Assembly: GCF_001713395.1 (NCBI RefSeq)
Contig: NZ_CP016452.1
Location: 806,001 to 870,000 of the forward strand
DNA length: 64,000 bases
Source of the DNA: Sinorhizobium sp. RAC02
GTDB lineage: Bacteria > Pseudomonadota > Alphaproteobacteria > Rhizobiales > Rhizobiaceae
Reading direction: 5' to 3'
How positions within the stretch are numbered: position 1 is the first letter of the stretch; every line of letters begins with the position of its first letter. The position numbers were made by a program, and so were the translations under genes. Below the pieces are notes generated by a model, which had not been told where the DNA came from, made no database searches, and was given only the letters and a program-made list of their open reading frames with translations. Positions 3,055 through 23,553 of the stretch are shown piece by piece.

Positions 3055-3117
3055 TTCCATATCCTTGCATGGCATCACGCGCCGCCCAATGACGGGGCGT
3101 TCGATCCGAGGCTTTGG

Positions 3118-4701
3118 TCAGGCGCTGAGCCAGCACCGCAGCGGTGCGTCGCCGTTCATGAGCTCGCCGGCGGGATTGTCCACCCAGCCCCGGATGTTTT
3201 CGCCGACGCCGTCGATAAAGTCGTTGAACATTGGCGCAATCAGTCCGCCCTCGTCGCGCATCATCTCCGACACATCCCGATACATCGCCCGCCGCTTCGT
3301 CTCGTCCAGTTCCGCACGCGCGGCGATCACGAGTTTATCGAAGCGCTCATTCCTGAAGCGGGTATCGTTCCAGTCCGCCGACGAGATGTAACCGGTGGAA
3401 TACATCTGGTCTTGTGTCGGCCGCCCGCCCCAATAGGAGGTCGAGAAAGGTTGCACATTCCAGACATTCGACCAGTAACCGTCGCCGGGTTCGCGCTTGA
3501 CGTCGATCTCGATGCCGGCTTTCTTGGCGCTTTCCTGATAAAGAACCGCAGCATCGACCGCACCTGGAAACGCGACTTCCGAGGTGCGCAGCACGACGGC
3601 GCCGCTGTGTCCGGACTTCTTGAAGTGGAAAGCCGCTTTCTCGGGATCGTAGGCGCGCTGTTCGATCGCCTCGTAGAGCGGATAGGCCTTGTTGATGGGG
3701 GCATCGTTGCCGACCGAGCCGTAGCCTTGCAGAATGCGTTCGATCATCGTCTCGCGATCCATCGCGTATTTGAGGGCGAGGCGCAGGTCCTTGTTATCGA
3801 AGGGTGCCGTGTCGCAGAACATGTTGAACGGGTAGAAGCCGCGACCGGATACGTTGCGGATCGTGACCCTCGGCATATTCTTAAGTAGTGCGACGGTTTT
3901 CGGCTCGATCCGGTTGATCATATGCACCTGGCCGCTCTGCATGGCGGCGATGCGCGCCGTGGCGTCGTTGATGACAACGATCTCCACCTGCTCGACGAAA
4001 CCAACGCTATCGCTGGCCCAATAGTTTTCAAAGCGGGTCGCGTTGTAGCGGACGCCCGCCTCGCTGCCGGCAAGTTTGTAAGGTCCGGTGCCGATTGCGG
4101 CTTCAGGATTGTCCTTTCCGCCGTTCGGCTGGATCACCAGATGATAGTCGATCATCAGAAAGGGCATGTCGGCATTGGCTTCCTTGAGGGTGAAGACGAC
4201 GGCGTCGCCGTCCGCCTTGACCGTTTCGATGCCTTTGAGAATGCCGAGCGCCCCGGATTTTGCGCTTTCATCCGAATGACGTTCGATTGTGGCAACGACG
4301 TCGTCCGGTTTCAATGTCCTACCGTCGTGGAACTGCACGCCCTTGCGGATCGTGAAAGTCCAGGTCTTGGCATCCGGCGAGGCGCTCCATTCTTCTGCAA
4401 GAACCGGAATCGGCGAACCATCCGGCGCCAGCCAGACAAGAGTCTCGCCCCACAAATGATTGATCATCGCCGTGACCTGATTTGTGGCAAGCCCCGGGTC
4501 GAGGCTGTCGGTTGATGCGCCGCCCTGCATGCCGATCTTGATTGTTCCGCCGCGCACCGGCCCTTCAGCCCTTGCGGCGGTAGACAGCAGGGACTCCGCG
4601 GCAACAAGGCCCAGGCCGAACACGACGCTGCGGCCGAGAAAGTCGCGACGCGACATCCGGCCTTTTGCAACGAGGCTGGAGAGATAGTTCAATTCATCCA
4701 T
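3118..4701 (-). CDS. ABC transporter substrate-binding protein (peptide/SBP_bac_5 family)
   Basis: A periplasmic solute receptor of 527 residues, the usual size for dipeptide/oligopeptide-type binding proteins. The N-terminus carries a twin-arginine export signal (SRRDFLG at residues 18-24, then a hydrophobic stretch ending in TAARAEG). Family features include SLDPGLATNQ near residue 65, the PDGSPIPVLAEEW segment, the GVQFHDGRTLKPDDVVATIE block near 140 and the later IGTGPYKL motif. No permease or ATPase genes flank it; the only apparent partner is the phosphodiesterase gene just downstream. It is divergent from the MocR gene, which probably controls it. The ligand is unknown: a peptide, opine or amino compound would fit the family and the regulator type. 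Confidence 0.9.
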   Translation of the reverse strand: MDELNYLSSLVAKGRMSRRDFLGRSVVFGLGLVAAESLLSTAARAEGPVRGGTIKIGMQGGASTDSLDPGLATNQVTAMINHLWGETLVWLAPDGSPIPVLAEEWSASPDAKTWTFTIRKGVQFHDGRTLKPDDVVATIERHSDESAKSGALGILKGIETVKADGDAVVFTLKEANADMPFLMIDYHLVIQPNGGKDNPEAAIGTGPYKLAGSEAGVRYNATRFENYWASDSVGFVEQVEIVVINDATARIAAMQSGQVHMINRIEPKTVALLKNMPRVTIRNVSGRGFYPFNMFCDTAPFDNKDLRLALKYAMDRETMIERILQGYGSVGNDAPINKAYPLYEAIEQRAYDPEKAAFHFKKSGHSGAVVLRTSEVAFPGAVDAAVLYQESAKKAGIEIDVKREPGDGYWSNVWNVQPFSTSYWGGRPTQDQMYSTGYISSADWNDTRFRNERFDKLVIAARAELDETKRRAMYRDVSEMMRDEGGLIAPMFNDFIDGVGENIRGWVDNPAGELMNGDAPLRCWLSA

Positions 4702-4784
4702 CGATAGTTCCCCGACCGGCTGAAATGGCTTGGCCCGCGGCCGGCCCGCAGACCGTGATTGCTTGATCCGGGGTGGATATTAGT

Positions 4785-4798
4785 CAGTAAGAATACTG
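4785..4798. promoter_or_regulatory. Candidate operator between MocR and SBP genes
   Basis: CAGTA-AGAA-TACTG is a 5-bp-arm inverted repeat in the roughly 200-bp divergent intergenic region, followed by AT-rich GTATACATG. Its place between the regulator and the substrate-binding protein gene suits a MocR operator or a promoter element. This is pattern-based only. Confidence 0.35.
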
Positions 4799-4904
4799 TA
4801 TACATGTCCAGAAATCACGAAAATGACCAGTCCACTTTACGGCTGGCATACGCGCAAGGAGAGATGCCATCGCCCGCACGATCGACGGCTCCAGTCTGGA
4901 TGGA

Positions 4905-6356
4905 TTGATACTCGATACCGAAAGCGATCGCCCGCTGTACCTTCAGCTCTATGCCGGGTTACGGGAAATGATTCTTTCGGGCGCGATTTCCGGCGGGACG
5001 CGCATCCCCTCTACACGTGTTCTCTCGGAAAGCCTCGGGATATCCCGCTTCACCGTTGTGACAGCGATCGACCAGCTCGTCGCCGAGGGTTATCTCAACT
5101 CCGTGCGAGGCAGCGGCACCTATGTGGAAACCGTTCCACGTCGCCAAACTCGACCATTCGATGCTTCCGTCAACGGCAAGGATACTCCCCCGGATCGCTT
5201 CGAAGATATGCTTTCCCGGCGAGGGCAGGCGCTGACATGGCGCACCTCGCTGACCTTGAATGACGGCTCGCAGCATCTGCATATGGCAACGCCCGACCAC
5301 CGGCTGTTTCCGGTGGATATCTGGTCGCGGCTGACGAAAGAAGTCTATGCGGAAGGCGACTTCCGTATCGTCAATTACCGCGAGATCTTACGTCCCTCCC
5401 TGCTCGAAGAGCAGATCGCCCGTCATATCGCCGTCAGTCGCGGTATTCGATGCGAGCCTGAGGAGGTGGTGACGACACTTGGCGCGCATCATGCAGTCAC
5501 GCTTCTCGCTGAATTGCTGCTCGATCCTGGCGACACGGTCGCGTTCGAGGAGCCGGGCATGGCGGCGATTCGGTCTATTTTCCAATCTTCCGACTGCAAG
5601 ATCGAGCCGATGTACGTCGATGCATCGGGGCCGGATCCGCACACGGTCGTCAACCGCGACGTCAAGCTCGCCTTCGTCACGGCTGCCAAACAGCAGCCCA
5701 TGACCATCGCGATGCCGATGAAGCGCAAGCTGGAAATGCTGCATTGGGCGGCCGATCGCGGTACGCTGATCATCGAGGACGATCTGGGCAGCGAGTTCCG
5801 CTATCGGGGCGGCCCCATTCCGCCCCTGAAAGCGCTCGATCAAGCTGGCCAAGTCATTTATGTCGGTGCCTTCAGTATGACGCTGCTGCAATCGCTGCGC
5901 GTCGGCTACATGATCATGCCGAAGGCGCTTGCGGAAAAATGCCGCCGGCTGATTCAGGTTCGCTACAGGGCACTGCCGCAATTTACCGAGCAGATCGTTG
6001 GCCGCCTTATCGAAGACGGCCACTATGTTCGTCATCTGCACAGGATGCGCCGTATCTACGCCAAACGACAGAACCGGCTCCTGCAAATCCTGCGGTCGGA
6101 TTTTGCCGATATTTTCGAACCGCCCGAATTCGCATCGGGGTTTTACAATCTTTGCTATTACAGGGATCAGTCGGTCGATGAGGATGCGCTCCTGATCCGC
6201 TGCCGGCACAACAATCTCGGCGTCGAACAACTGTCCTACTATTACGCAAACCGGATATCGCCGCGAAAGGCGCTTCTTGTCGGCTTTGCTGCATCGAATG
6301 AAGATGAGATTCAGTTCTCAACGAAACTGTTGAAGCGCTGTTTGGAGGCGACATAA
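4905..6356 (+). CDS. MocR-type PLP-dependent GntR family transcriptional regulator
   Basis: An N-terminal GntR winged helix (PLYLQLYAGLREMILSG, then IPSTRVLSESLGISRFTV and the GSGTYVE wing) is fused to a class I aminotransferase-like domain of about 370 residues. The latter includes TLGAHHAVTLLAELLLDPGD, the aspartate region EDDLGSEFRYRG, and GAFSMTLLQSLRVGYM. In that last segment the usual PLP lysine context S-K is replaced by S-M, which needs checking. The start is uncertain. TTG 4905 is the first usable codon, but the frame is open back to 4827 and contains AIARTIDGSSLDG, which looks like genuine N-terminal coding. No ATG or GTG is in frame there. It probably regulates the divergent SBP-phosphodiesterase genes in response to an amino compound. 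Confidence 0.85.
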   Translation: MILDTESDRPLYLQLYAGLREMILSGAISGGTRIPSTRVLSESLGISRFTVVTAIDQLVAEGYLNSVRGSGTYVETVPRRQTRPFDASVNGKDTPPDRFEDMLSRRGQALTWRTSLTLNDGSQHLHMATPDHRLFPVDIWSRLTKEVYAEGDFRIVNYREILRPSLLEEQIARHIAVSRGIRCEPEEVVTTLGAHHAVTLLAELLLDPGDTVAFEEPGMAAIRSIFQSSDCKIEPMYVDASGPDPHTVVNRDVKLAFVTAAKQQPMTIAMPMKRKLEMLHWAADRGTLIIEDDLGSEFRYRGGPIPPLKALDQAGQVIYVGAFSMTLLQSLRVGYMIMPKALAEKCRRLIQVRYRALPQFTEQIVGRLIEDGHYVRHLHRMRRIYAKRQNRLLQILRSDFADIFEPPEFASGFYNLCYYRDQSVDEDALLIRCRHNNLGVEQLSYYYANRISPRKALLVGFAASNEDEIQFSTKLLKRCLEAT

Positions 6357-8196: not shown

Positions 8197-8976
8197 TCAA
8201 TATCGGGTTGTGATGATGGAGGAAGCACCGGCCGCTTCAATGGCCTGAGTGATGTTTGGCGGTGGTTCGGTGTCTGTGACGAGGCGGCCAATTTGATCCC
8301 AGCCGGTAACCTCGAATATCCCGCGCTTGTTGAATTTCGAGGCATCAGCGAGCACCGTCACCGTCTCGACCCGCTCGATCATCGCTCGGGCGATCTGCGT
8401 TTCTGCCTCGTCGAAGTCCAGTAGGCCAGTTCCGTCGATGGCGCCGACGGTCAGGAACGCGTGGCGCGCTCGAAAGCGGCCAATCTGCTCGACCGCTAAC
8501 GAGCCTACTGTCTCCGACGCGTCCATGCTGAACGCACCACCGATCAGGAAGACTTTGTTTTCACCGCCGGCAGATACGAGCGAAGCGATGCGGATGCTGT
8601 TCGTGATCACTGTCAGACCTGACAATCCGGCGATGGCTTCGGCGAACAGAACCGTCGTTGTCCCCGTATCGATGAAAAGACTGTCACCTGGGGAGAGAAG
8701 GCTCGCGGCCGCCTTTGCGATCTGGCGTTTGGCCGGGAGGTTTTCCGCCATGCGCGCGGCAAATGGGCCTTCGCCACCCATCTCGGTCGCAGCGATGGAG
8801 CGGAGCTTAGCACCGCCATGGAATTTCTGAATCCTGCCTAACTCGTCGAGGCCGACAAGATCCCTGCGGATCGTCTCGCGGGAGACCGTGAGCTCCTCAG
8901 CAAGTTGGTCCACGCTGACCTCTCCTCGACGAGTAACAAGCCGGATTATTTCCTCGTGACGCTCGTGTGGACGCAC
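8197..8976 (-). CDS. DeoR/GlpR family transcriptional regulator
   Basis: A sugar-phosphate-sensing repressor of about 260 residues. The N-terminal DeoR helix-turn-helix reads RHEEIIRLVTRRGEVSVDQL, then AEELTVSRETIRRDL, followed by the GRIQKFHGGAKL wing. The C-terminal ligand domain includes LSPGDSLFIDTGTTT, the family's phosphate-binding region, and ASKFNKRG. GTG 8976 is chosen as start because GGAGAGG lies 7 nt upstream and the protein then begins at the usual VRPHERHEE. A longer upstream frame to 9156 has no family similarity. It is divergent from the flavoprotein-kinase-permease operon at 9224 and probably represses it, with a phosphorylated intermediate made by the FGGY kinase as inducer. 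Confidence 0.9.
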   Translation of the reverse strand: MRPHERHEEIIRLVTRRGEVSVDQLAEELTVSRETIRRDLVGLDELGRIQKFHGGAKLRSIAATEMGGEGPFAARMAENLPAKRQIAKAAASLLSPGDSLFIDTGTTTVLFAEAIAGLSGLTVITNSIRIASLVSAGGENKVFLIGGAFSMDASETVGSLAVEQIGRFRARHAFLTVGAIDGTGLLDFDEAETQIARAMIERVETVTVLADASKFNKRGIFEVTGWDQIGRLVTDTEPPPNITQAIEAAGASSIITTRY

Positions 8977-9019
8977 TAGTGAACCTCTCCGATAGCGCCT
9001 AAACGCATTGCCGCTAAAT

Positions 9020-9031
9020 GCCCGAACGGTC
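9020..9031. promoter_or_regulatory. Candidate DeoR operator copy 1
   Basis: GCCCGAACGGTC lies in the DeoR-operon divergent region. Near-identical copies occur at 9181-9194 (reverse orientation) and 9200-9211, so this is a repeated motif and not a chance word. Confidence 0.45.
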
Positions 9032-9180
9032 AAAAAGCGCAACAATATCTCCACATATAGCGACCGAATGGCCGAGATGCAAAGAGTCCAGATACGAAAA
9101 ATCGACGTCGATTCAACGCGAAAGTGGTCGGCTGTGCGGTTCGCGCGGATTCCCACTTTACAGAATGATACGCTTATTGT

Positions 9181-9211
9181 TACCGTTCGGTCATAAATCG
9201 CCCAAACGGTA
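9181..9211. promoter_or_regulatory. Candidate DeoR operator copies 2 and 3
   Basis: TACCGTTCGGTCAT (reverse complement contains CCGAACGGTA) and GCCCAAACGGTA face each other about 6 bp apart. Both lie 13-40 bp upstream of the GTG start at 9224, a position suited to repression. They share the core CCSRAACGGT with copy 1. Confidence 0.45.
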
Positions 9212-9223
9212 GGAATTTATGTT

Positions 9224-10633
9224 GTGAACGCACAATCGCAACTATCCGGTAGTGAGTTTTTCGACGTCGCGATCATCGGTGCAGGCATCGTCGGCTGTGC
9301 GGTTGCCCGGCGGTTCGCTCTCGCGGGCGCGAAAGTCGCGCTCATCGAGAAGGGCTCGGACATTCTTTCGGGGGCTTCCAAAGCAAACAGCGCGATCCTT
9401 CACACGGGTTTCGATGCGCCGAACGGAAGCCTCGAACTCGCATTGGTTCAGGCCGGGCGACAGGAATACCTCGATATCCATCAGGACATGAATTTACCCC
9501 TGGTCGAAACAAGCGCTCTTGTTTGCGCCTGGACTGCCGATGAAGCATTGAAACTCGAAGGGATCGCCGAGCAGGGTCGCCAGAACGGGGTCGACCGTCT
9601 CCGGTTGTTGACCTCCGCAGAAGCGCGAACTGTCGAGCCCGGATTGGCAGACAATTTGGTTGCGGCACTTCATGTTCTTGACGAACACGTCATCGATCCG
9701 TGGTCTGCACCCCTTGCCTACGTCAACCAAGCAATTGCCCTTGGGGCAACCGTCCTGCGCCAGTGCGAGGTGCGGGCAGGGGCATTCGACGGAGAGTGGC
9801 GGCTCGAAACCAACCAGGGCGGCATCAGGTCAAAATGGGTAGTCAACGCAGCCGGTCTATTCGGCGACCACGTTGATACCTGTCTGGGTTTCCAGTCCGA
9901 ATTCCAGATAAAGCCTCGCAAAGGTCAATTCGTCGTCCTCGACAAGGCGGCATCGCGCCAGTTGAAGACGATCATTCTCCCCGTGCCGAACGAAATCACC
10001 AAGGGGGTCGTTGTCTGTCCCACGGCATTCGGCAACATCCTGGTCGGTCCCACCGCCGAAGAACAGGACGATCGCATCCGGGCTACGGTCGAACACGACA
10101 CACTCGAGGCTCTCGTCGCGCTTGGAAGCAAGCTTGTCCCCGGTCTGGCCCACATTCCGGTCACGGCGGTCTATGCGGGTCTGCGTCCCGCAACGGAGAA
10201 GAAGGAATACCGGGTCATCCATCGCGCCGAGCACAATGCGATTACCCTTGGCGGCATTCGATCCACCGGGCTCAGTTCCGCTCTCGGTCTCGCGCAACAT
10301 GCTCTGAACCTGCATGGTGGCGCAGACCGCGGCGAGTTCTCCTCCAAGGCGACACCGAAGGTGTGCATGCCAAATCTTGCCGAGAGCAGATCGCGGGACT
10401 GGCAAGCCGAAAACCACGGCGACATCGTCTGCCACTGCGAGATGGTCACACGCCGCGAGATCGAAGCGACACTGAGCAGCCCGCTTCCGCCTGGCGATTT
10501 CGGTGGCCTGCGGCGGCGCACGCGCGCAGGGATGGGATGCTGCCAAGGCTTCTACTGCAACGCCAAGCTTGCCGAAATCAGCAAGGGCTGTCTCGCTACA
10601 CCGCTTGCGGTCGATCAGGAGGGCGGCAAATGA
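9224..10633 (+). CDS. FAD-dependent oxidoreductase with BFD-type [2Fe-2S] domain (GlpA-like)
   Basis: A 469-residue flavoprotein. The N-terminal DAO/GlpA fold starts with the dinucleotide motif VAIIGAGIVGCAVARRFA, then SGASKANSAILHTGFD. The middle resembles anaerobic glycerol-3-phosphate dehydrogenase A. Near the C-terminus a bacterioferredoxin-like [2Fe-2S] domain supplies four Cys: CHCEM and, about 30 residues later, GMGCCQGFYC. Such proteins oxidise a hydroxyl or amine and pass electrons to a partner. The start is GTG 9224. It overlaps the next gene by ATGA and begins a five-gene operon with a second flavoprotein, a GlpK-like kinase, a DUF1937-like protein and an APC permease. The substrate is probably a glycerol-like or amino-polyol phosphate, but that is inference. 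Confidence 0.85.
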   Translation: MNAQSQLSGSEFFDVAIIGAGIVGCAVARRFALAGAKVALIEKGSDILSGASKANSAILHTGFDAPNGSLELALVQAGRQEYLDIHQDMNLPLVETSALVCAWTADEALKLEGIAEQGRQNGVDRLRLLTSAEARTVEPGLADNLVAALHVLDEHVIDPWSAPLAYVNQAIALGATVLRQCEVRAGAFDGEWRLETNQGGIRSKWVVNAAGLFGDHVDTCLGFQSEFQIKPRKGQFVVLDKAASRQLKTIILPVPNEITKGVVVCPTAFGNILVGPTAEEQDDRIRATVEHDTLEALVALGSKLVPGLAHIPVTAVYAGLRPATEKKEYRVIHRAEHNAITLGGIRSTGLSSALGLAQHALNLHGGADRGEFSSKATPKVCMPNLAESRSRDWQAENHGDIVCHCEMVTRREIEATLSSPLPPGDFGGLRRRTRAGMGCCQGFYCNAKLAEISKGCLATPLAVDQEGGK

Positions 10634-11850
10634 GCCAGTCCGACGTTATCATTATCGGCGGAGGTCCTTCTGGCGTCGCGGCCGCAATTGCGATGCGCAA
10701 GGCCGGCGTTGGGAAGATCACTCTCCTTGAGAGAGAGCGTTACCTTGGCGGCGCGACGCGGCACTGCAGCCATTCACCCTTCGGAATGTTCGAGTTCGGC
10801 CGCGTTTATTTTGGCGCTGCGTATGGCCGTCGCCTGGAACAGGAAATCGCCAAGTACGGCATCGACCTCCGCTATGGCCACTCTGTTGCCCGACTTGGAG
10901 AAGACGGCGAACTTCTTGTCACGAACCCCGATGGTCTCCAGACCCTGTCAACCCAGCGTGTGCTTGTGACGACCGGGGTGCGGGAAACGACGCGCGCCGC
11001 ACGACTCGTGACGGGCGATCGTCCGGTCGGCGTCGTAACGACAGGCACTTTGCAATCCTATGTCGCCTTCCACAATATGATGCCATTCAAACGCCCCGTC
11101 ATTGTTGGATCGGAACTCGTGACGTTCTCCGCGATCTGGACATGCCTCAGCCATGGTGCGCGTCCCGCCGCGGTTCTTGAGCCGAGATCACATTCCCTGG
11201 TGCGCGGGCCGCTGAACTGGTTCCCGTCGCTGATGGGTATTCCGTTCCACCGCGGTGCGCAGGTCGTCGATATTCTCGGCCGCGGCCGCGTCGAGGCCGT
11301 AAGGATCCAGCATGGCGATATCGTCGAAACAGTCGAATGTGACGGCGTTCTATTTTCCGGTGGGTTCACGCCCGAGGCCTCGCTGTTCCTCACATCCGGG
11401 CTTGCCGTCGATTGGGGTAGCGCCGGTCCGGCAGTCGATCAGGATGGCCGCTGCGAAAACCCTCGCTACTTTGCGGCGGGAAACGTGCTCCGAGCCGTCG
11501 AGACCGGTGGATGGGCATTCCGCGAGGGCAGGGCTATTGGAACGGCCCTCGCTGCGGACCTTCTCGGCAACGCCTCGAAGGCGGCTCCGATCAAGGTCAC
11601 TTACGACGATCCGATCAAGCTTGTCGTGCCGAACCTTCTGCGGAATGGAGCAGTGCTCCCTGGCGGCTTGAAGGATTTTCAACTGCGCTTTCGGCGCAGG
11701 GCCAAGGGGAGCCTCTCATTGGCCATCGATGGACGCGAGGTCTGGCAACGCAAAGAAACGTGGCGGCCGGAAAGCCGGATCATTGTCCCACGGCCCAAAA
11801 ATTCGACTGACGCGCAAAGCGTCCACTTCAGCTTCAGCGAGGAAGAGTGA
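10630..11850 (+). CDS. NAD(P)/FAD-dependent oxidoreductase (opine-oxidase-alpha / HcnB-like)
   Basis: A 406-residue flavoprotein. It starts with the FAD motif DVIIIGGGPSGVAAAIAM and LLERERYLGGATRHC, and has a later ATG-like turn (VLVTTGVRET) and the C-terminal FAD motif ENPRYFAAGNVLRAVETGG. It resembles the thioredoxin-reductase-fold subunits of opine oxidase or proline dehydrogenase complexes that pair with a DAO-type subunit and a [2Fe-2S] domain. ATG 10630 overlaps the upstream stop (ATGA), which fixes the start. It is probably the partner subunit of the GlpA-like protein, so the two would form one membrane-peripheral or soluble dehydrogenase complex. The kinase gene starts directly at the base after its stop. 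Confidence 0.85.
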   Translation: MSQSDVIIIGGGPSGVAAAIAMRKAGVGKITLLERERYLGGATRHCSHSPFGMFEFGRVYFGAAYGRRLEQEIAKYGIDLRYGHSVARLGEDGELLVTNPDGLQTLSTQRVLVTTGVRETTRAARLVTGDRPVGVVTTGTLQSYVAFHNMMPFKRPVIVGSELVTFSAIWTCLSHGARPAAVLEPRSHSLVRGPLNWFPSLMGIPFHRGAQVVDILGRGRVEAVRIQHGDIVETVECDGVLFSGGFTPEASLFLTSGLAVDWGSAGPAVDQDGRCENPRYFAAGNVLRAVETGGWAFREGRAIGTALAADLLGNASKAAPIKVTYDDPIKLVVPNLLRNGAVLPGGLKDFQLRFRRRAKGSLSLAIDGREVWQRKETWRPESRIIVPRPKNSTDAQSVHFSFSEEE

Positions 11851-13245
11851 ATGCGCGTCGCATCAATTGACCAAGGAACCACATCAACCCGATGCCTGGT
11901 CGTGGAAGACGGGGGCGAATGGAAGATCGTCGCCAGCCGCAAGCATGGTCAGGATCATCCATTCGCGGGCTGGGTCGAGCATGATCCGCACGAGCTTCTA
12001 AAGAATATCGTCACCGTTCTGGATGCGGCCGGGAGGGTCGATGCGGTCGCCATCGCAAACCAGGGTGAGAGCTGCCTGGCATGGGATGCCGAGACCAAGG
12101 AAGCGCTTTCTCCCGTGATCGTGTGGCAGGATTCCCGAACGGCGAAGTATCTTGCCGATCTGGGGAGCGACGCTGAGGAAATCTCCAAGCGCATCTGCGG
12201 TCTTCCGCTTGATCCGTATTTCTCAGCCAGTAAGCTCGCCTGGCTCCTCCGTCATGTTCCGAGCATCGAGGAAGCCTACAAAGCAGGCCGCCTTCGCCTC
12301 GGAACGACCGACGCATTCTTCCTCGACTCCCTGGCGGGCGTGTTCGCCACCGATCTTGCGACGGCTTCGCGCACCGGTCTCCTTGATCTCGCGACGGGTA
12401 TGTGGAGCGATGAGCTTTGCGCCCTGCACGGCGTTCCCAAGGAATGCCTCCCGCGCATCGCGAACGTCAACGACGATTTCGGCCAGATCAACGGCATTCC
12501 CGTGAAGGCCTCCATCGTGGACCAGCAGGCGGCCCTATTCGGTCATGGATGCCGTGCGCCCGGCGACTGCAAGATAACGTTTGGAACGGGGGCATTCCTG
12601 CTCGCTGTCAGCGGCAGCGAACGCCCGCCGCGCTCAGAACTGCTTCCGACCGTCGCCTGGGCATTGAAGGACAGCGGCACGGCCTTTGCCATCGAAGGCG
12701 GCGTCTACGACGCGGGATCAGCGCTCGAGTGGGCCAGAAACATCGGCCTTTATTCTGCATTGGAAGAGCTGGGCGTGTTTGAAGGCCCGTCAGCTTTGAG
12801 CCGCGGGATCATCTTCGTCCCGGCGCTTTCCGGTCTTGCAGCCCCTTACTGGGATCGAACCGCTGCTCCGATGTTTATCGGCATGGACCATGCCACGGAT
12901 CGGAGAGACCTCGTCCGCGCCGTCCTGGAAGGCATCGCGATGCTCACAGTTGGACTGATCAAGGCCGCCTCCGATGTCACGGACCTTGGTCCCAGTATCT
13001 CGATCGATGGCGGGCTCTCGCAAAGCGCATATTTTGCCCAGTTCCTCGCATCGGCCAGCAATCGCACCATTACCGTTCCCTCGATGCACGAACTGACGGC
13101 CCTTGGGCTTGCGGAGCTCTGTGGTCTTGACGTTACCGCAGCCCGCGCCAGGAGCACGCGCTACGAGCCCGACGGATCGGTCACCGAAGCACACCACGCG
13201 TTGTTCAAAAAAGCCGTCGAACGATCGCGCGGCTGGCGCGACTGA
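11851..13245 (+). CDS. FGGY family carbohydrate kinase (GlpK-like)
   Basis: A 464-residue FGGY kinase, which phosphorylates a polyol or keto-sugar with ATP. The N-terminal phosphate loop is SIDQGTTSTRCLVVE, with WQDSRTA near residue 93. The catalytic base region is IVDQQAALFGHGC, and FGTGAFLL follows. The C-terminal adenosine motif is IDGGLSQSAYFAQFLA. Overall it looks closer to glycerol kinase than to xylulokinase. It begins on the base after the preceding stop, so translation is coupled. With a DeoR repressor and a GlpA-like dehydrogenase in the same unit, the logic is import, phosphorylation and oxidation of a glycerol-like substrate. The permease type suggests that substrate carries an amine. 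Confidence 0.9.
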   Translation: MRVASIDQGTTSTRCLVVEDGGEWKIVASRKHGQDHPFAGWVEHDPHELLKNIVTVLDAAGRVDAVAIANQGESCLAWDAETKEALSPVIVWQDSRTAKYLADLGSDAEEISKRICGLPLDPYFSASKLAWLLRHVPSIEEAYKAGRLRLGTTDAFFLDSLAGVFATDLATASRTGLLDLATGMWSDELCALHGVPKECLPRIANVNDDFGQINGIPVKASIVDQQAALFGHGCRAPGDCKITFGTGAFLLAVSGSERPPRSELLPTVAWALKDSGTAFAIEGGVYDAGSALEWARNIGLYSALEELGVFEGPSALSRGIIFVPALSGLAAPYWDRTAAPMFIGMDHATDRRDLVRAVLEGIAMLTVGLIKAASDVTDLGPSISIDGGLSQSAYFAQFLASASNRTITVPSMHELTALGLAELCGLDVTAARARSTRYEPDGSVTEAHHALFKKAVERSRGWRD

Positions 13246-13283
13246 CGCACCACTGAACGCTTAAAATCAGGAGTTTATGCAGC

Positions 13284-13640
13284 ATGCGAAAAATCTTTCT
13301 CGCAGGCCCGTACGGTCATGCCGATCGTGACGTTGTCGACCGCAGGTTCAACGAGGCGAATGCGATCGCCGCCAAGATCGCGCGGAGCGGGTCCACCGTC
13401 TTCAGTCAGATTTCCATGTCCCACCCGATCAACGGCCACCTGTCTGATTTCGACAAGGCAGGTATCGGCAAGCTGTGGGCGCCGATCGACCAGGTCTTCA
13501 TGGAAGCCATGGACGAGATCTTCGTGATTGACGGCCCCGGCTGGCAGGAAAGTGCCGGCGTCAAGCGGGAGATGGAGTTTTTTGAATCCAAGGGGCGTCG
13601 CGTCAGCCTCTGGAGCGATGTCGAACACGAGTTCGCTTAA
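13284..13640 (+). CDS. DUF1937-like protein, nucleoside 2-deoxyribosyltransferase fold
   Basis: A 118-residue protein starting KIFLAGPYGHADRDVVDRRF, followed by HPINGH, and later EAMDEIFVIDGPGWQESAGV and a REMEFFESKGRRV segment. The order FLAGPY - (R)F..A - PISxSHP - D - GWxxSxGVxxE matches what I know of DUF1937, a small family sharing the nucleoside 2-deoxyribosyltransferase fold. In that fold a Glu acts as the glycosyl-linked nucleophile; the Glu in QESAGV or REMEF is a candidate. It lies 38 bp after the kinase and 33 bp before the permease, clearly inside the operon. Its place in a polyol-type catabolic operon suggests cleavage of an N-glycosidic or similar bond; this is inference. Confidence 0.65.
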   Translation: MRKIFLAGPYGHADRDVVDRRFNEANAIAAKIARSGSTVFSQISMSHPINGHLSDFDKAGIGKLWAPIDQVFMEAMDEIFVIDGPGWQESAGVKREMEFFESKGRRVSLWSDVEHEFA

Positions 13641-13673
13641 CCGACGTAACTGGGCAAGAAACAGGGGAATCCA

Positions 13674-15173
13674 ATGACTACATTGTCCACTTCCGGCTCC
13701 GCGCCGGGGCAAACCGATCACGACCATCTCAAGCGGGACGTCACGCCGTTCCAGTCTTTTGCGGTTGCGTTCGGCTTCGTCTCGATTGCCACGGGGATCT
13801 TCACCGCCTATGGCGCGATGCTCTCGAGTTCTGGCCCGATGGGCATCTGGACTTGGCCCGTCGTTGTCATCGGCCAGCTCATGGTCGCACTGATCATCGG
13901 TTCGCTTGCCGCCCGTATTCCGGTAACAGGCTATATCTACCAATGGGCATCGCGTCTCACCAACCCGGTCTTCGGCTGGATCATGGGCTGGATCGGGTTT
14001 ACCTTCCTCGCCGTGGTGCTTGTTGCGGTCGACTATACGATCGCCTCGACCGTCCTTCCGGTCCTACTCAGCTATGAGGGAACTGCCGAGAACGCCTGGT
14101 GGATCACCAGCATCGTGATCATCGCGCAGGCTGTCATGATCGCCTTCTCGACAAAATTCACCCAAAAATTCAACTCCGTCGCCGTGACCATCCAGCTCGT
14201 CGGCATGATCGGTCTCGTCGTGCTGCTGTTTGCTGTCGGCGCGTACAATAACGAGCTCAATTTCTCGAACCTTTTCAGCACCGCAGGCGTCGCGCAGGAA
14301 GGCTACTATTCCTTCGGTACGTTGACGAGCGCCGGTCCCTGGATCATGGGTACGCTGCTTGGTGCATTCACCATCGTCGGTTTCGAATCCGCTGCGAACC
14401 TCGCCGAGGAAACCCGCGATCCAGCTCGCGTCGTTCCAAAGGCCATGTGGCAGGCCGTCCTCAGCCTCGGCATCATCGGCATGCTGTTCCTCATCGCCAT
14501 TACGGCCCTGCTCGGCGACCCAACCGCGCTCAGCGGTTCTGCGACACCGATCGCCGACGTTATCAACCGCGTTCTCGGTCCTGTTCTCGGCAACCTGCTG
14601 CTCGTGCTGGTCGTCATCTCGATCTTCTCCTGCGGCCTCGTGATTCTGCTGAGCGGCACGCGCCTCGTCTGGGCAATGTCCCGCGACGAGCGCTTCCCCG
14701 GCTGGCAGCTGTGGCATCGGATCAGCCCCTCGCTGAAGACGCCCGTAAACGCGACCGTGTTCATGGCGGTCGTTGGCCAGGTCATCCTGGCATTGTTCGC
14801 CAAGCAGACCGACGCGCTGTTTGCGTTGTTCTCGGCGGCGACGCTGCTCCCGGCGATCATCTACGCGGTGACGGTGCTGATCTACGCGTTCCAGCGGAAC
14901 AACCTGCCGCCGAGCCAGGGCTTCCGTCTCGGCGCATGGGAAACCCCGGTTCTCATTGTGGCGATTCTCTGGCTCGTGTTCGAGCTGGCGATCTTCCGTG
15001 ATGCGTCGTTTGCTAAGCCATGGTCCTATGTTGCGATCATGTTCGCGATTTGTGTGGTTTACTTGGTGTTTTTGCTTGCGACACGCGGTGGAGCGAAAGG
15101 CCTCAAAATGCCTGACATGATCTCGGTTGATGCTATCCTCGATGCGGATAAGGGGCAGGAAACGCTGCGATAA
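13674..15173 (+). CDS. APC family amino acid/amine permease
   Basis: A 499-residue inner-membrane protein with about 12 hydrophobic segments. The N-terminal signature QSFAVAFGFVSIATGIFTAY and the following AARIPVTGYIYQWASRLTNP block are typical of the amino acid-polyamine-organocation superfamily. GFESAANLAEETRDPARVVP near residue 240 is the conserved helix-6 region. It is the last gene of the DeoR-linked operon and a 10-bp inverted repeat follows. It is the only transporter in the unit, so it probably imports the pathway substrate. An APC carrier points to an amine- or amino-acid-bearing compound rather than plain glycerol. Confidence 0.9.
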   Translation: MTTLSTSGSAPGQTDHDHLKRDVTPFQSFAVAFGFVSIATGIFTAYGAMLSSSGPMGIWTWPVVVIGQLMVALIIGSLAARIPVTGYIYQWASRLTNPVFGWIMGWIGFTFLAVVLVAVDYTIASTVLPVLLSYEGTAENAWWITSIVIIAQAVMIAFSTKFTQKFNSVAVTIQLVGMIGLVVLLFAVGAYNNELNFSNLFSTAGVAQEGYYSFGTLTSAGPWIMGTLLGAFTIVGFESAANLAEETRDPARVVPKAMWQAVLSLGIIGMLFLIAITALLGDPTALSGSATPIADVINRVLGPVLGNLLLVLVVISIFSCGLVILLSGTRLVWAMSRDERFPGWQLWHRISPSLKTPVNATVFMAVVGQVILALFAKQTDALFALFSAATLLPAIIYAVTVLIYAFQRNNLPPSQGFRLGAWETPVLIVAILWLVFELAIFRDASFAKPWSYVAIMFAICVVYLVFLLATRGGAKGLKMPDMISVDAILDADKGQETLR

Positions 15174-16233: not shown

Positions 16234-17070
16234 ATGGACGGTGCCATCCTCTACATCGGAGGCGAAGATCGACCTCGTGCCGCATCGAGCGAGGTGCAGC
16301 CCGAGATGACTGCCGCTTCGGACAACGTGCTCATTCGTCTCAAGTCCTTGAGCAAACACTATGGAACGCACACCGTCCTCGACGGCATCGACCTCGAGGT
16401 GCGTTCGGGGGAGGTGCTTGCCATCATAGGGCCAAGCGGTTCGGGCAAGAGCACGCTCCTGCGTTGCATCAACTACCTCGAGCGGCCGGATGGCGGGATG
16501 ATCTCGATCGGATCGACGACCATTGATGCAGCGCGCGCTGTTGGGCGTGCCGAACTCTCCGCCCTGCGCCGGCGGGTTGGCATGGTGTTCCAATCGTTCA
16601 ATCTCTTCCCGCATATGTCTGTGCTGCGCAATGTCAGCCTTGCCCAGGAGCGTGTCCTTGGCCGCAGCCGCAAGGAGGCCGATGAGCGTTCCATGCAACT
16701 CCTCAAACGCGTCGGCCTCGATGACAAGGCTGAGCAATATCCGGTGCGGTGTTCGGGCGGCCAGCAGCAGCGCATCGCTATTGCGCGCTCGCTGGCGCTT
16801 GATCCGGATATCATGCTGTTCGACGAGCCGACTTCGGCGCTCGATCCTGAGCTCGGTCTTGAGGTTCTCGCCGTCATGCGCGAGCTTGCCGAAAGCGGCA
16901 TGACCATGATCGTCGTGACCCATGAAATGGGCTTCGCCGAGAACGTCTCCGATACGGTCATGATCATGGCCGACGGCCATATCGTCGAGAAGGGACCGTC
17001 CAAGGAGGTGATGCGCAATCCGCAGCAGGAGCGGACGAAACGCTTCCTCCGCGCGGTGCACGATCGATGA
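16234..17070 (+). CDS. Amino acid ABC transporter ATP-binding protein
   Basis: An ATPase of the polar amino acid uptake family (GlnQ-like). Walker A is GPSGSGKST, the Q-loop lies in [16 protein letters not shown], the ABC signature is [15 protein letters not shown] (first base of the usual LSGG replaced by C), Walker B is [14 protein letters not shown] and the switch His is in [12 protein letters not shown] 16234 has a GGGGGA site 9-10 nt upstream; ATG 16306 would remove a 24-residue N-terminal extension and is equally possible. It overlaps the permease gene by ATGA. The unusual order (ATPase, two permeases, receptor) is all one operon. Confidence 0.9.
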
Positions 17071-17711
17071 GCCTGACGGACCTGTTGCCCCTCCTGCGCG
17101 GCCTCACCTGGACGATCGCGCTCACGGCCGGCGCGTTCCTCATTGGCGCTGTGCTCGGCGTACCGCTGCTTGCAGCGCGTCAGAGCCGGCTTTCGCCGTT
17201 GCGCTTCCTCGCCATGGTCGTCATCCAGATCGTCCGCGCGATCCCGCCGATCCTCTGGCTCTTCATCATCTTCTTTGGCCTCGGCATGGGTGTGATGCCG
17301 ATCAGCCCGTTCAACGCCGCGCTGGTGGGCCTCGGGCTGATCGCAACAGCGAATATGGCGGAGATCTACCGTGGTGCGGTCGCATCCATCCACCATGGCC
17401 AGTTCGAGGCCTCTGCCGCGCTCGATCTCGGCCGCTGGTCGACCTTGCGCGACATCGTCGCGCCGCAGGCCTTCCGCGTCGCGCTGCCTTCGGCGGCAAG
17501 CTACCTTATTGGCCTCATGAAGGAGACCGCGGTCGCCTCGACCATCGGCGTAGCGGAGCTTGCGTACCAGGGCAATCAGCTGTCGCAGCTGACCTATCGC
17601 GGCCTTGAGGTTTTTGCGCTGGTCGGGCTGTTCTACGTGCTCCTGAGCCTTCCAATCGCATGGCTCTCGCGCGTCGCCGACGCTTATCTCCAGACGAAGG
17701 TAGCGCGTTGA
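17067..17711 (+). CDS. Amino acid ABC transporter permease 1
   Basis: A 214-residue HisM/GlnP-type inner-membrane permease. It begins with a hydrophobic helix ([20 protein letters not shown]) and has the conserved EAA loop for ATPase coupling ([20 protein letters not shown]). The sequence [18 protein letters not shown] is the usual family block. ATG 17067 overlaps the ATPase stop, and its stop overlaps the next start. With the second permease it would form a heterodimeric channel for a polar amino acid. Confidence 0.9.
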
Positions 17712-18373
17712 TGTTTCCGAGCTTTGACGAGATCTCCGCCTGGCTGCCGGACCTTCTCGGCGGATTGTCGATCAGCCTGCAGGTGACGGCTCTCAGCTTG
17801 CTGATCGGTATCCCCTTCGGCCTGCTCCTGGCATTGGGCGTACTTGCGAAAAGCCGCGTGCTGAAGGGCTTCAGCCTCTTCCTGGTTGAGATCGGCCGCG
17901 GCGCGCCGGCGCTGGTGCTTCTGCAATTCATCTATTTCGGCCTGCCGACGACCGGGCTGACGCTTGGCTCCTACTCAGCCGCAATTATTGCGCTCGCCTG
18001 GAACACTGGCGCCTATACCAGCGAGATCATCCGCGCCAGCCTGCAATCCGTCGCTCATGGCCAGCGGGAGGCGGCCGAAGCACTCGGCCTCAACCGGGTT
18101 GACGAGCTGCGCTACGTGCTCCTGCCACAAGGCCTTCGGGTGGCGCTTCCCGCACTGCTCGGCTTCTCTATCCTGATCTTCCAGGGCACGTCGCTCTGCT
18201 TCACCATCGCACTGCCGGAGCTGGTGAGCCGTGCCTATGAGATCGGCTCCACGACCTTCCGCTACTTCCCGGCTCTGCTCTCCGCCGGCGTGCTCTACGC
18301 CAGCATCTCCATCCCCGCCGCCCTGCTCGTCAACCACGTCGAGAAACGTGCGGGCCTTTACGCCCACCGTTGA
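17711..18373 (+). CDS. Amino acid ABC transporter permease 2
   Basis: A 220-residue HisM/GlnP-type permease. Visible features are GLSISLQVTALSLLIGIPFG, the EIGRGAPALVLLQFIYFGLP block and the EAA loop QREAAEALGLNRVDELRYV. The start is ATG 17711, which shares its A with the upstream TGA (TGATG), so translation is coupled. It is the partner of permease 1. The substrate-binding protein gene follows after 23 bp. Confidence 0.9.
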   Translation: MFPSFDEISAWLPDLLGGLSISLQVTALSLLIGIPFGLLLALGVLAKSRVLKGFSLFLVEIGRGAPALVLLQFIYFGLPTTGLTLGSYSAAIIALAWNTGAYTSEIIRASLQSVAHGQREAAEALGLNRVDELRYVLLPQGLRVALPALLGFSILIFQGTSLCFTIALPELVSRAYEIGSTTFRYFPALLSAGVLYASISIPAALLVNHVEKRAGLYAHR

Positions 18374-18396
18374 ACCCAACCTGAAAGGATGCCTCC

Positions 18397-19239
18397 ATGC
18401 CCCGAATGATGAAGACCACGATGCAGTTCCTTCTCGCCGGCATTGCCGGTCTCGCGCTCTCGGCTGGAATCGCGTCCGCGCAGGATTGCACGCCAAAGCA
18501 TCAGTTCACCACGGTTGAAGCCGGTACGCTGACGGTAGCAGTCACGACCTACATACCGCATTCCTTCGTCGACGACAGCGGCAACATGAAGGGTATCGAC
18601 GGCGACATCGCCGCCGAATTCGCCAAGCGCGAATGCCTGAAGGTAAAGGCGATCGCTGTCGATCCGGCAGCCGCCATCCAGTACGTGCTCTCAGGCCAGG
18701 CTGATATCACTACCGGCGACTGGTATCGCACCGCTGAGCGCGCGAAGGTGATGAGCCTTTCCGCTCCGCTCTATACCGACCAGATGGGCATCTATTCAAA
18801 GGAAGGTTTCAAGACCGTCGCCGATCTCGAAGGCAAGCAGGTTGGTACGGTGCAGGGCTATCTCTGGGTCGCCGACCTCAAGGCAATGCTCGGCGACTCG
18901 CTGAAGCTCTATCCGAACTCCGTCAATATGCAGCAGGACCTGAACTCGGGCCGCATCGATGTTGCGGTCGATGGCTACTCGACCGGCGTCGTCGCCGAAC
19001 AGAAGGACGCGCTGGGTGATGTCAAGGTCAACGTTGCCGCTCCCGACGAACGCGTGAAGGCAACGAAGGAAGCGGCGCAGGCGGCTTTCCCCTATTCGCT
19101 GAATGCGAAGGAACTGGGCGTCGCGCTGGACGCCTCGATAGCCGAAATGCATGCGGACGGCACGGTCGTCACCATCCTCAAGTCCTACGGCCTGGATGGC
19201 ACTGCGGCGGATACGGGTGCGCCGCGCCTCGTCGAGTAA
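18397..19239 (+). CDS. Amino acid ABC transporter substrate-binding protein
   Basis: A periplasmic receptor of 280 residues in the SBP_bac_3 family. It has a signal peptide (LLAGIAGLALSAGIASA followed by QDC). The mature part includes YIPHSFVDDSGNMKGIDGDI, the IQYVLSGQADITTGDWYRT turn, and LNSGRIDVAVDGYSTG near residue 190. AAGGA lies 8 nt before ATG 18397. It completes the four-gene importer. The downstream racemase-family protein, aldo/keto reductase and DAO-type oxidase suggest the ligand is an amino acid or derivative that is then racemised or oxidised. Confidence 0.9.
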   Translation: MPRMMKTTMQFLLAGIAGLALSAGIASAQDCTPKHQFTTVEAGTLTVAVTTYIPHSFVDDSGNMKGIDGDIAAEFAKRECLKVKAIAVDPAAAIQYVLSGQADITTGDWYRTAERAKVMSLSAPLYTDQMGIYSKEGFKTVADLEGKQVGTVQGYLWVADLKAMLGDSLKLYPNSVNMQQDLNSGRIDVAVDGYSTGVVAEQKDALGDVKVNVAAPDERVKATKEAAQAAFPYSLNAKELGVALDASIAEMHADGTVVTILKSYGLDGTAADTGAPRLVE

Positions 19240-19251
19240 TAAACCAAGAGG

Positions 19252-19273
19252 CGGGAGAGGGCACTCTCCCGCA
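19252..19273 (+). terminator. Intercistronic hairpin after receptor gene
   Basis: GCGGGAGAGG pairs with CTCTCCCGC around GCA, 12 bp after the receptor stop, without a T-run. It may protect the upstream transcript end or partly terminate, giving more importer than enzyme. Confidence 0.45.
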
Positions 19274-19305
19274 TTCCCCTGACATGGCAATCGGAGACGA
19301 TAACG

Positions 19306-20040
19306 ATGACTGTCTATACGGTCACGCGAAAGACGCAGTCGTGGTATGGCGAACAGATTGGCATCCTGATCCTTGACGCCGCCTATCCCTGCGTACCCGG
19401 CAATGTCGGCAACGCGACGACCTATGAGTATCCCGTTCGCTTCCAGGAGGTGCGAGGCGCGTCGATCGACCGTCTGCTCAACCAGCGCGATCCCGCTTTG
19501 AAAGAGGTCTTCATCGAGGCTGCCGTCGAACTCCAGAACCGCGGCGTCAAGGCAATCACGGGCGCCTGCGGCTTCATGGCCTATTTCCAGGAAGAGGTTG
19601 CGGCAGCGGTCGAGGTTCCGGTCTTCCTTTCCAGTCTGATGCAGATTCCCTTCATGCATGCGCTGTGCGGCGGGCGGGTCGGTGTCATCACCGCGAATGC
19701 CGCACGGTTGACCCCGCGTCACTTCGCGGCCTGCAATGTCGCGGACCATGTACCACTGGCCATTGCCGGCATGGAGGGGCAGACGGAGTTTCGCGAGGCC
19801 ATTCTCGAAGAACGCGGAACACTTGATTCTGCGGCAATCGAGCGGGAAGTAACGGAGGTGGCGCGGCGTCTCGTGGAGGATAATCCCGATGTCCGCTCGA
19901 TCCTGCTTGAGTGCAGCGACCTACCGCCCTATGCCCATGCCGTGCAGGCGGCGACCGGCCGGCCGGTCTTCGACTTCATCACCATGATCAATTACGTGCA
20001 GCAGAGTACCGCGCGTCGCCCCTATACGGGCGGCATGTAG
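19306..20040 (+). CDS. Aspartate/glutamate racemase family protein
   Basis: A 244-residue protein of the Asp/Glu/hydantoin racemase superfamily. The two catalytic Cys of the family are visible in ITGACGFMAYF (near residue 87) and LLECSDLPPYA (near 205). A region GVITANAARLT corresponds to the conserved substrate-binding stretch. It follows the amino acid ABC importer and precedes an aldo/keto reductase. It might racemise or isomerise the imported amino acid, or act as a maleate isomerase-like or decarboxylase-like member. The family has all these activities, so the reaction is open. Confidence 0.75.
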   Translation: MTVYTVTRKTQSWYGEQIGILILDAAYPCVPGNVGNATTYEYPVRFQEVRGASIDRLLNQRDPALKEVFIEAAVELQNRGVKAITGACGFMAYFQEEVAAAVEVPVFLSSLMQIPFMHALCGGRVGVITANAARLTPRHFAACNVADHVPLAIAGMEGQTEFREAILEERGTLDSAAIEREVTEVARRLVEDNPDVRSILLECSDLPPYAHAVQAATGRPVFDFITMINYVQQSTARRPYTGGM

Positions 20041-20072
20041 CCGGGCTCTTCTGACAGAAACAGGGATCGACG

Positions 20073-21212
20073 ATGTCGCTTGATCACTATTACCTCCTCG
20101 GCCGCTCCGGATTGCGGGTGAGCCGCCTTGCGCTCGGTACCATGACCTTCGGCAACGCTGGTATACGCGGTATTGGCGGCTCTTGGGGCAGTGACGAGGC
20201 GACGGCCCGCGCGATCTTCAATCGCTATGTCGAAGCGGGCGGCAACTTCATCGATACGGCAGATTCCTATGCCGGAGGCATGAGCGAGAGCCTCGTCGGC
20301 AATTTCGTTGCTGAAGCCGGGCTTCGCGACCGGATGGTCATCGCCACGAAGTTCTCGAACAATGTCTCGCCTGGCAATCCGAATGCGGGCGGCAACGGTC
20401 GCAAGAACATCATGCGCGCGGTCGATGCCTCGCTGAAGCGCCTGAAGACGGATTATATCGATCTCTACCTCCTTCACACCTGGGATCGCATGACCCCTGT
20501 AGAGGAAGTGATGCGCACGCTCGATGATCTCGTGCGTACGGGAAAGATCCGGCATGCGGGCCTTTCCGACGTACCCGGCTGGTATGCGGCGCGAGCGCAG
20601 ACCTGGGCGGAGGCCCATGCACTGTCGTTGCCGATCAGCCTGCAGCTTCCATATTCGCTGGTCGAACGCAGTATCGAGCACGAATTCGTTGCACTCGCCG
20701 AAACGCTCGGGCTCGGCATAACCGCCTGGAGCCCGCTTGCCATGGGGCTCCTGTCCGGCAAGTACCGCTCCGGCGCGCAGGCGGGGCGCCTTGCGCTGGA
20801 TGCCTCCGGCACGGGCCTGGGACTTTTCAACGAGCGTAATGCCCGCATTGTCGCCGCTCTTGAGGAAACAGCTGCGCAGGTCGGGCGTAGCATGGCGCAG
20901 GTGGCGCTCAATTGGGTCGTCAACCGTCCAGGCGTTGCCGCGGCGATCATCGGTGCGAGCCGGCTCGAACAGCTGGACGACAATCTCGCTTCTCTCGATT
21001 TCGAGTTGGCCGCCGACCAGCGCGCCGCCCTCGATGCGGCCAGCGCCATCGATGCGCCCTATCCCTACAGCCTGTTTGCCGACGACTATCAGGCGGGCAT
21101 CCTGAACACCGGCAGCTCTGTCGGTGAGAAACCGCGGACGTATCGTTCCGACATCTTCCTGCCGAAGGTGACGGACTACGTCTTCGGCCAGCCAAAAAAG
21201 CAGAAATCATAG
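20073..21212 (+). CDS. Aldo/keto reductase
   Basis: A 379-residue NAD(P)H-dependent oxidoreductase with the aldo/keto reductase (beta/alpha)8 fold. The catalytic tetrad appears as Asp and Tyr in FIDTADSYAGG, Lys in ATKFSNN and His in LYLLHTWD. The C-terminal cofactor motif is AAIIGASRLEQLDDNL. It belongs to the long YghZ/Tas-type subgroup that acts on small aldehydes. It lies 32 bp after the racemase gene and 21 bp before the DAO-type oxidase. A likely role is reducing an aldehyde made when the oxidase deaminates the imported substrate; this is inference. Confidence 0.85.
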   Translation: MSLDHYYLLGRSGLRVSRLALGTMTFGNAGIRGIGGSWGSDEATARAIFNRYVEAGGNFIDTADSYAGGMSESLVGNFVAEAGLRDRMVIATKFSNNVSPGNPNAGGNGRKNIMRAVDASLKRLKTDYIDLYLLHTWDRMTPVEEVMRTLDDLVRTGKIRHAGLSDVPGWYAARAQTWAEAHALSLPISLQLPYSLVERSIEHEFVALAETLGLGITAWSPLAMGLLSGKYRSGAQAGRLALDASGTGLGLFNERNARIVAALEETAAQVGRSMAQVALNWVVNRPGVAAAIIGASRLEQLDDNLASLDFELAADQRAALDAASAIDAPYPYSLFADDYQAGILNTGSSVGEKPRTYRSDIFLPKVTDYVFGQPKKQKS

Positions 21213-21233
21213 GCGACTGGAAGGACTGACGGC

Positions 21234-22517: not shown

Positions 22518-22523
22518 GGGCGC

Positions 22524-23459: not shown

Positions 23460-23474
23460 AATTTGAAGTTATGC
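23456..23474. promoter_or_regulatory. Candidate LysR binding site
   Basis: GCATAA-TTTGAAG-TTATGC is a perfect 6-bp-arm dyad containing the T-N11-A core typical of LysR boxes. It overlaps the LysR start codon and lies about 80 bp upstream of the divergent GcvT-family start. Confidence 0.55.
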
Positions 23475-23553
23475 CCCTCGACAATTTTTAGCAAGATTAC
23501 AGCCTCCCGGGCCCTTTGTACGGTGCTGGAAATCAATTCGAGGGAACATTCTC

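Follow-up and report, generated by a model that had tools for sequence, protein, structure and literature searches.

Here we describe a gene set that probably enables some bacteria to use as a nutrient a nitrogen-containing analogue of glycerol, for example serinol. It lies at positions 8197–15173 of a 64,000-nucleotide stretch of Sinorhizobium sp. RAC02 (contig NZ_CP016452.1, positions 806,001 to 870,000; hereafter the window) and comprises five genes, encoding a GlpA-like flavoprotein, an HcnB-like flavoprotein, a GlpK-like kinase, a DUF1937 protein and an APC-superfamily permease, together with a divergent gene for a DeoR-family regulator. Comparison with related loci suggests that a pathway of the glycerol type has here been adapted to an amino alcohol. 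The most likely substrate is serinol (2-amino-1,3-propanediol, the amine counterpart of glycerol), a reading to which we assign a probability of about 0.45. We are considerably more confident that the substrate is some phosphorylated amino alcohol in general.

An invariant three-gene core

Related loci were collected using the kinase as query against species-representative genomes (best 80 of 205 relatives), plasmids (12 records at E 1e-80; H2, H7 and H12 were not opened) and whole-genome samples of the class and phylum. Twenty-nine of the best 80 are core-type kinases (45–96% identity to the window kinase); the remaining 51 (40% identity or less) are ordinary GlpK relatives and served as outgroup. 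These 29 loci, 9 of the 12 plasmid matches and 11 of the 12 class-sample genomes (the twelfth being the window's own) make up a set of 49 core loci, from which a duplicate of L091 (L130) and two short records (L009 and L010) were left out; L132 and L133 were not opened. Neighbourhood genes were called by a codon-based picker, and 35 alphaproteobacterial glpK loci served as controls. The locus counts treat relatives as separate and include near-copies (L021/L093, L023/L025/L037 and L097/L127/L128), and statistics derived from them are only a guide.

The GlpA-like flavoprotein, HcnB-like flavoprotein and GlpK-like kinase genes are adjacent on one strand at all 49 loci. Neither flavoprotein was found at the 35 control loci, and among the 51 outgroup loci a GlpA-like relative occurs at one and an HcnB-like relative at none. 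Because the core recurs in 49 of 49 loci, the arrangement is not due to chance. An earlier note, made from the sequence of the window, had paired the kinase with the flavoprotein couple, which the core supports; it had also taken the five genes as one set, which the comparison does not bear out. Only three are invariant, and the DUF1937 protein (13 of 49 loci) and the window-type permease (at least 60% identity; 15 of 49) are exchangeable add-ons to them. A core-type kinase is encoded in 12 of 385 class-sample genomes, own included (E 1e-110), and in 4 of 398 phylum-sample genomes (E 1e-105). Of note, a window-type operon is also borne by NZ_CP084753.1 (L091), labelled Roseateles sp. XES5 (Betaproteobacteria, UNVERIFIED_ORG).

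A kinase lacking the signature arginine

The published GlpK signature consists of Arg83, Glu84, Tyr135 and Asp245 (hydrogen bonds to glycerol) and Phe270, and is called identical across GlpK clusters (PMC3245297, excerpt; sources available in part are marked in this way throughout). The window kinase has G72, E73, Y123, D224 and F249 at these positions, so that GlpK Arg83 is replaced by Gly72. Glycine occupies the Arg83 position in all 41 core-linked rows aligned, and the four other signature residues are kept in all 41 (the window protein recurs unchanged as L009, and one genome supplies both L010 and L091). In the set used for the tree, glycine is found in 50 of 50 core-linked kinases, whereas the outgroup GlpKs have Arg83 in 51 of 51, with Glu84 in 50 and Asp in one. 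The residue preceding Asp245 is Val in the core kinases and Gly in the outgroup, and a nearby Tyr is changed to Phe, both without exception in those rows. The 50 kinases bearing the resulting NQGE motif form a single clade in a tree of 103 kinases (Shimodaira–Hasegawa-like approximate likelihood-ratio support of 100, by a quick method), although the tree program warned that the long branch of an own-genome kinase, L003, meets this group. All 35 control glpK genes carry NQRE (34 by pattern, 1 separately).

The window kinase scores 381.8 bits against the NCBIfam GlpK equivalog TIGR01311, under the cut-off of 590.35. A GlpK relative is also encoded in each of the 12 core-bearing genomes searched (best match 50–96% identical; assigned by identity alone), and the window's genome has a 513-residue GlpK with NQRE. 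Judged by the published signature, the loss of Arg83 and the separate GlpK relatives in the same genomes argue that the core-linked kinase is a second, altered kinase and not a glycerol kinase. The clade is currently annotated as glycerol or carbohydrate kinase (glycerol kinase in one Pseudomonas aeruginosa record), and, if the reading proposed here is right, NQGE in place of NQRE, together with VDQQ in place of GDQQ, would provide a sequence rule for its re-annotation.

Amine and ethanolamine genes beside the core

Using module proteins as queries, we found an amine-linked module at 40 of the 49 core loci but at only 1 of the 35 control loci; the same modules were absent from all 51 outgroup loci, an outgroup made up mostly of Bacteroidota. 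EtoX-like TRAP binding proteins are present at 14 core loci, EutB at 5 and an APC permease of the window type (at least 25% identity) at 21, against none of the controls for each, and a glutamine-synthetase-like ligase is present at 4 core loci and 1 control. Taken by itself, an APC permease or a PotD-type ABC transporter points only weakly to an amine. Of the stronger markers, EtoX, EutB and EutH, at least one is found at 17 core loci, with EutH at a single locus, that of P. aeruginosa (L094), where the core is also surrounded by DUF1937, a P1-family peptidase and another APC permease. The TRAP protein of Chelatococcus (L093) matches 4uab (E 7e-132), which is Csal_0678 with ethanolamine bound (PMC12410723, excerpt), and the homologue EtoX binds ethanolamine with a dissociation constant (Kd) of 7.9 µM (PMC10132767, excerpt). 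At E 0.001, no PDB entry is related in sequence to EutH. The ABC binding protein of L014 has polyamine-binding proteins among its closest solved relatives and gives no firm hint of its ligand, and a family-5 binding protein (L124) and an Iso_dh protein (L123) fit none of the proposed schemes. An RraA-like aldolase-family gene stands beside ABC transporter genes near the core at six of the 49 loci (L014, L016, L028, L030, L031 and L032).

Two unrelated routes for ethanolamine occur next to the core. In Paracoccus albus (L131), the core is divergent from genes for a DeoR regulator, a TRAP transporter, a glutamine-synthetase-like protein, an aldehyde dehydrogenase (ALDH) and an iron-type alcohol dehydrogenase (ADH). 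As annotated, these gene kinds fit the published steps of ethanolamine glutamylation in Phaeobacter, namely those of a glutamylase, an aldehyde dehydrogenase and an alcohol dehydrogenase (PMC10132767, excerpt), and with such an operon alongside, the core should be dispensable for ethanolamine itself. In Agrobacterium (L024 and L026), Chelatococcus and a metagenome-assembled genome (L027), EutB and EutC adjoin it instead. Since each of the two routes stands beside the core, the core probably has a different substrate, one that shares the amino-alcohol transporters and is probably an analogue of ethanolamine and of glycerol alike. The suggestion in the earlier note of an amine-bearing, glycerol-like substrate thus gains support, of a purely comparative kind.

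The flavoprotein pair and a possible serinol pathway

The best NCBIfam model for the GlpA-like protein is type 2 GlpO (NF033460; 222.8 bits, under the cut-off of 460), and its closest solved relative is Mycoplasma pneumoniae GlpO (4x9m), aligned in the DAO domain over residues 10–363. His60, Lys260 and Arg321 are invariant in the 48 rows aligned; Lys260 and Arg321 presumably correspond to phosphate contacts in GlpO. By residue counting on the 4x9m alignment, His60 matches GlpO His51, the base that acts on the C2 hydroxyl and takes its proton (PMC10726252, excerpt). The conserved histidine points to a substrate resembling glycerol phosphate and, by itself, would somewhat favour oxidation of an alcohol over that of an amine. 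The HcnB-like protein, whose gene adjoins that of the GlpA-like protein at every core locus, has TIGR01372 (soxA) as its best NCBIfam match (62.1 bits; cut-off 1164).

In the pathway that we propose, the permease would import serinol and the kinase would phosphorylate a terminal hydroxyl to give serinol phosphate, the loss of Arg83 making room for the ammonium group while Glu84 and Asp245 are kept. The flavoprotein pair would then oxidize the C2 amine to an imine, hydrolysis of which would yield dihydroxyacetone phosphate (DHAP) for glycolysis and ammonia as a nitrogen source, with no further enzyme needed. Serinol is the simplest compound that is an analogue of both glycerol and ethanolamine, and the kinase site amounts to a glycerol site from which one arginine is missing. 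Serinol is also a ligand of the ethanolamine receptor CqsR. Serinol phosphate is formed from DHAP by transamination, through RtxA (PMC3222319, excerpt) and Cj1437 (PMC11800397, excerpt) and, slowly, by human transaminases (PMC9283133, excerpt), and serinol has been found in sugarcane, in rhizobitoxine synthesis and in the Campylobacter capsule (PMC3222319 and PMC11800397, excerpts). We put forward, as a proposal slightly more tentative than serinol as substrate, a dedicated serinol catabolism that would have spread, with changing transporter modules, mainly within Alphaproteobacteria and be present in P. aeruginosa. It would have arisen from the glycerol pathway with loss of the kinase arginine and would run the known serinol-phosphate biosynthesis in reverse, a flavoprotein replacing the transaminase. 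If true, this would supply a substrate for the FGGY kinase clade, an added route for nitrogen-bearing glycerol and a neighbourhood context for DUF1937.

Several observations weigh against this proposal. Serinol is uncommon as a natural compound, and the scheme gives DUF1937 no role. Given the GlpO-type histidine, oxidation of a C2 hydroxyl may fit at least as well as that of a C2 amine. Nine of the 49 core loci have no amine-linked module in the stretch fetched. In the window's genome, PF06751 (EutB) is absent, with an E. coli positive control detected, and a search for an EtoX-type TRAP protein, run without a positive control, gave no match; the ethanolamine link is thus made through relatives only. 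In one family (L119, L121 and L122), a LysR regulator, an APC permease, a glutamine-synthetase-like protein, an ALDH and the core form one array, with no alcohol dehydrogenase between or next to the ligase and ALDH genes, which serinol does not explain. Finally, Pseudomonas hunanensis, which degrades tris(hydroxymethyl)aminomethane (TRIS), showed no growth on serinol (PMC10848231, excerpt), although this strain was not checked for the core.

Alternative substrates

Another amino polyol, such as 3-amino-1,2-propanediol, alaninol or an N-substituted glycerol, may be phosphorylated and then oxidized at its C2 hydroxyl or amine. The invariant GlpO-type base His60 would suit a C2 hydroxyl, loss of Arg83 would make the glycerol site fit for an amine of any kind, and the amine-linked modules beside the core would be expected here too. 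However, 3-amino-1,2-propanediol would yield the phosphate of an amino ketone, and no downstream enzyme to process it is seen beside the core; CqsR, albeit of another fold than the transporters found here, does not tolerate a substituent on the carbon adjacent to the hydroxyl group (1-amino-2-propanols). We regard such a substrate as unlikely, though less so than the alternatives below.

The core may instead be a second glycerol or glycerol-3-phosphate route, in the use of phospholipid head groups, that stands next to ethanolamine genes because glycerol and ethanolamine compounds both derive from phosphatidylethanolamine. GlpK and GlpO are the closest characterized families, four of the five GlpK signature residues are kept, and ethanolamine transport and breakdown genes lie near the core in some loci. 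Against this stand the loss, in all 50 members, of an arginine from a signature described as identical across GlpK clusters (PMC3245297, excerpt), the GlpK relative already present in 12 of 12 genomes, and the amine-type character of the transporters that travel with the core, which together make this reading improbable. With Arg83 changed and separate GlpK relatives present, the plain glycerol pathway was not kept as leading reading.

Just as improbable is ethanolamine itself, which would be converted to O-phosphoethanolamine and oxidized to glycolaldehyde phosphate and ammonia. The EtoX-like, EutB and EutH proteins at 17 loci point in this direction, but a separate route is already present at several such loci (EutBC at L024, L026, L027 and L093; ligase, ALDH and ADH at L131), for which reason ethanolamine was set aside as leading reading; moreover, the kinase and flavoprotein retain residues for glycerol and glycerol phosphate, and the product would need further enzymes, none of which is seen. 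Less probable again is that the nutrient is a conjugated amino alcohol (amide or gamma-glutamyl), from which an S58/P1 peptidase or a gamma-glutamyltranspeptidase would free the amino alcohol before the core acts: S58-type peptidases (4 of 49) and gamma-glutamyltranspeptidases (3 of 49) were found at core loci and at none of the 35 controls, yet these are just seven loci, three of them near-identical Bartonella-like metagenome-assembled genomes, and neither hydrolase gene is seen beside the window operon. The N-linked polyol or glycosylamine raised in the earlier note has only the DUF1937 fold to recommend it, and 36 of the 49 stretches gave no DUF1937 match.

The operon and its surroundings in the window

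All six genes were confirmed by open reading frame analysis and Pfam (Table 1), and the packing is as first described. The two flavoprotein genes share a 4-bp ATGA overlap at 10630–10633, the second abuts the kinase gene (11850/11851; gap of 0 bp), and gaps of 38 and then 33 bp follow. The DeoR gene is divergent from the five plus-strand genes and separated from them by 247 bp if it starts at GTG 8976 (780 nt), which is more likely than a start at 9156, a 91%-identical relative at L091 being annotated at 780 nt. Between the two lies an imperfect inverted repeat, its arms 80% complementary with a spacer of 11 nt, from which, together with the third copy at 9018–9035, the DeoR protein would probably repress the operon. 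Alignment with four relatives (L011, L012, L013 and L091) shows good conservation of the repeat pair and conservation of most of the third copy.

Table 1. Coordinates of genes and operator-like repeats of the operon in the window
Feature	Position	Strand	Basis and predicted role
DeoR/GlpR-family regulator	8197..8976	-	Pfam HTH_DeoR, DeoRC; start GTG 8976 favoured over 9156
Third copy of operator-like repeat, regulator side	9018..9035		83% complementary with 9177-9194; putative function
Operator-like inverted repeat, directly upstream of operon	9176..9216		Arms 9176-9190 / 9202-9216; putative function
GlpA/GlpO-like FAD (flavin adenine dinucleotide) flavoprotein with C-terminal BFD-type [2Fe-2S] domain	9224..10633	+	Pfam DAO and Fer2_BFD; predicted serinol-phosphate dehydrogenase subunit
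HcnB/SoxA-alpha-like FAD flavoprotein	10630..11850	+	Pfam Pyr_redox_2; predicted partner subunit
GlpK-like FGGY kinase, Arg83-to-Gly	11851..13245	+	Pfam FGGY_N, FGGY_C; predicted serinol (amino alcohol) kinase
DUF1937 protein	13284..13640	+	Nucleoside 2-deoxyribosyltransferase / DNPH1 fold
APC-superfamily permease	13674..15173	+	Pfam AA_permease_2; predicted amino-alcohol importer

The DUF1937 protein (PF09152; 112.9 bits against a Pfam cut-off of 23) is 61% identical to 1t1j, a structure released in 2004 and still named hypothetical protein. A structural match over most of the domain upholds the fold assigned to it at the outset, that of nucleoside 2-deoxyribosyltransferase/DNPH1. Found beside the core at 13 of 49 loci and at none of the 35 controls, DUF1937 is rare among genomes (2 of 297 in the family, 6 of 385 in the class and 1 of 396 in the phylum, own included); the protein database holds 173 homologues, also from Serratia, Rhodococcus and others. 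Proteins with the nearest folds transfer or hydrolyse N-glycosides. A fold by itself shows no function, and a role as N-glycoside or imine hydrolase is speculation. The permease scores 197.2 bits against TIGR03428 (urea-carboxylase permease; cut-off 740.45) and 167.7 bits against TIGR00907 (amino acid/choline transporter; cut-off 598.3) in NCBIfam.

Elsewhere in the window, a second FGGY kinase (NQRES motif) at 31282–38369 has as neighbours the N-terminal half of a transketolase and an ABC ATPase, an arrangement that we take to resemble the apiose/apulose split-transketolase operon. The region 2215–6356 encodes a phosphodiesterase-family protein, a family-5 solute-binding protein and a MocR-like regulator, which passes the PdxR model (367.6 bits; cut-off 320) and has its top score with rhizopine MocR (392.4 bits; cut-off 650). 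At 16234–25995, a transporter cluster of the amino-acid type, with an SBP_bac_3 binding protein at 18397, is followed by DAO oxidases, one of them an 813-residue DAO–GCV_T fusion of the dimethylglycine/sarcosine dehydrogenase type.

Comparison with known systems

The proposed order of reactions is that of GlpK with GlpD or GlpABC, in which a kinase acts first and a GlpA/GlpO-type flavoprotein then oxidizes the three-carbon phosphate at C2, with a DeoR/GlpR-type regulator. The core differs in its kinase without Arg83, in the amine-type transporters nearby and in the separate GlpK relative in the genomes. Mycoplasma pneumoniae GlpO shares the aligned DAO domain and the catalytic histidine; the core protein has, in addition, a C-terminal BFD domain and an adjacent HcnB-like gene. 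In this the pair resembles the two-subunit opine, Hcn and sarcosine-type dehydrogenases, which we take to be the related class and in which a DAO flavoprotein likewise stands beside a Pyr_redox flavoprotein with a BFD domain. By contrast, the core pair is accompanied by a kinase at every one of the 49 loci and has the active-site histidine of the alcohol-oxidizing branch.

Ethanolamine glutamylation with EtoVWX in Phaeobacter MED193 involves the same transporter family as that found beside the core, whereas no core genes are named in that operon in the excerpt available (PMC10132767); in Paracoccus albus the two stand side by side. TRIS degradation (PMC10848231, excerpt) is a further case of bacterial use of an amino polyol, but it proceeds through alcohol and aldehyde dehydrogenases, mSHMT and D-serine dehydratase, in the strain mentioned above that did not grow on serinol. 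In the open-licence literature (most subscription journals lay outside the search) we found nothing on a serinol catabolic or kinase pathway, in keeping with the view first taken that no pathway with this gene set has been described. The P. aeruginosa locus, which we take to be PA1485–PA1492, is uncharacterized in the same literature. In the single paper found to name it, PA1487 is called a possible glycerol kinase (PMC8151288). This locus shares with the window a homologous core, a DeoR regulator, DUF1937 and an APC permease, to which it adds EutH and a P1-family peptidase.

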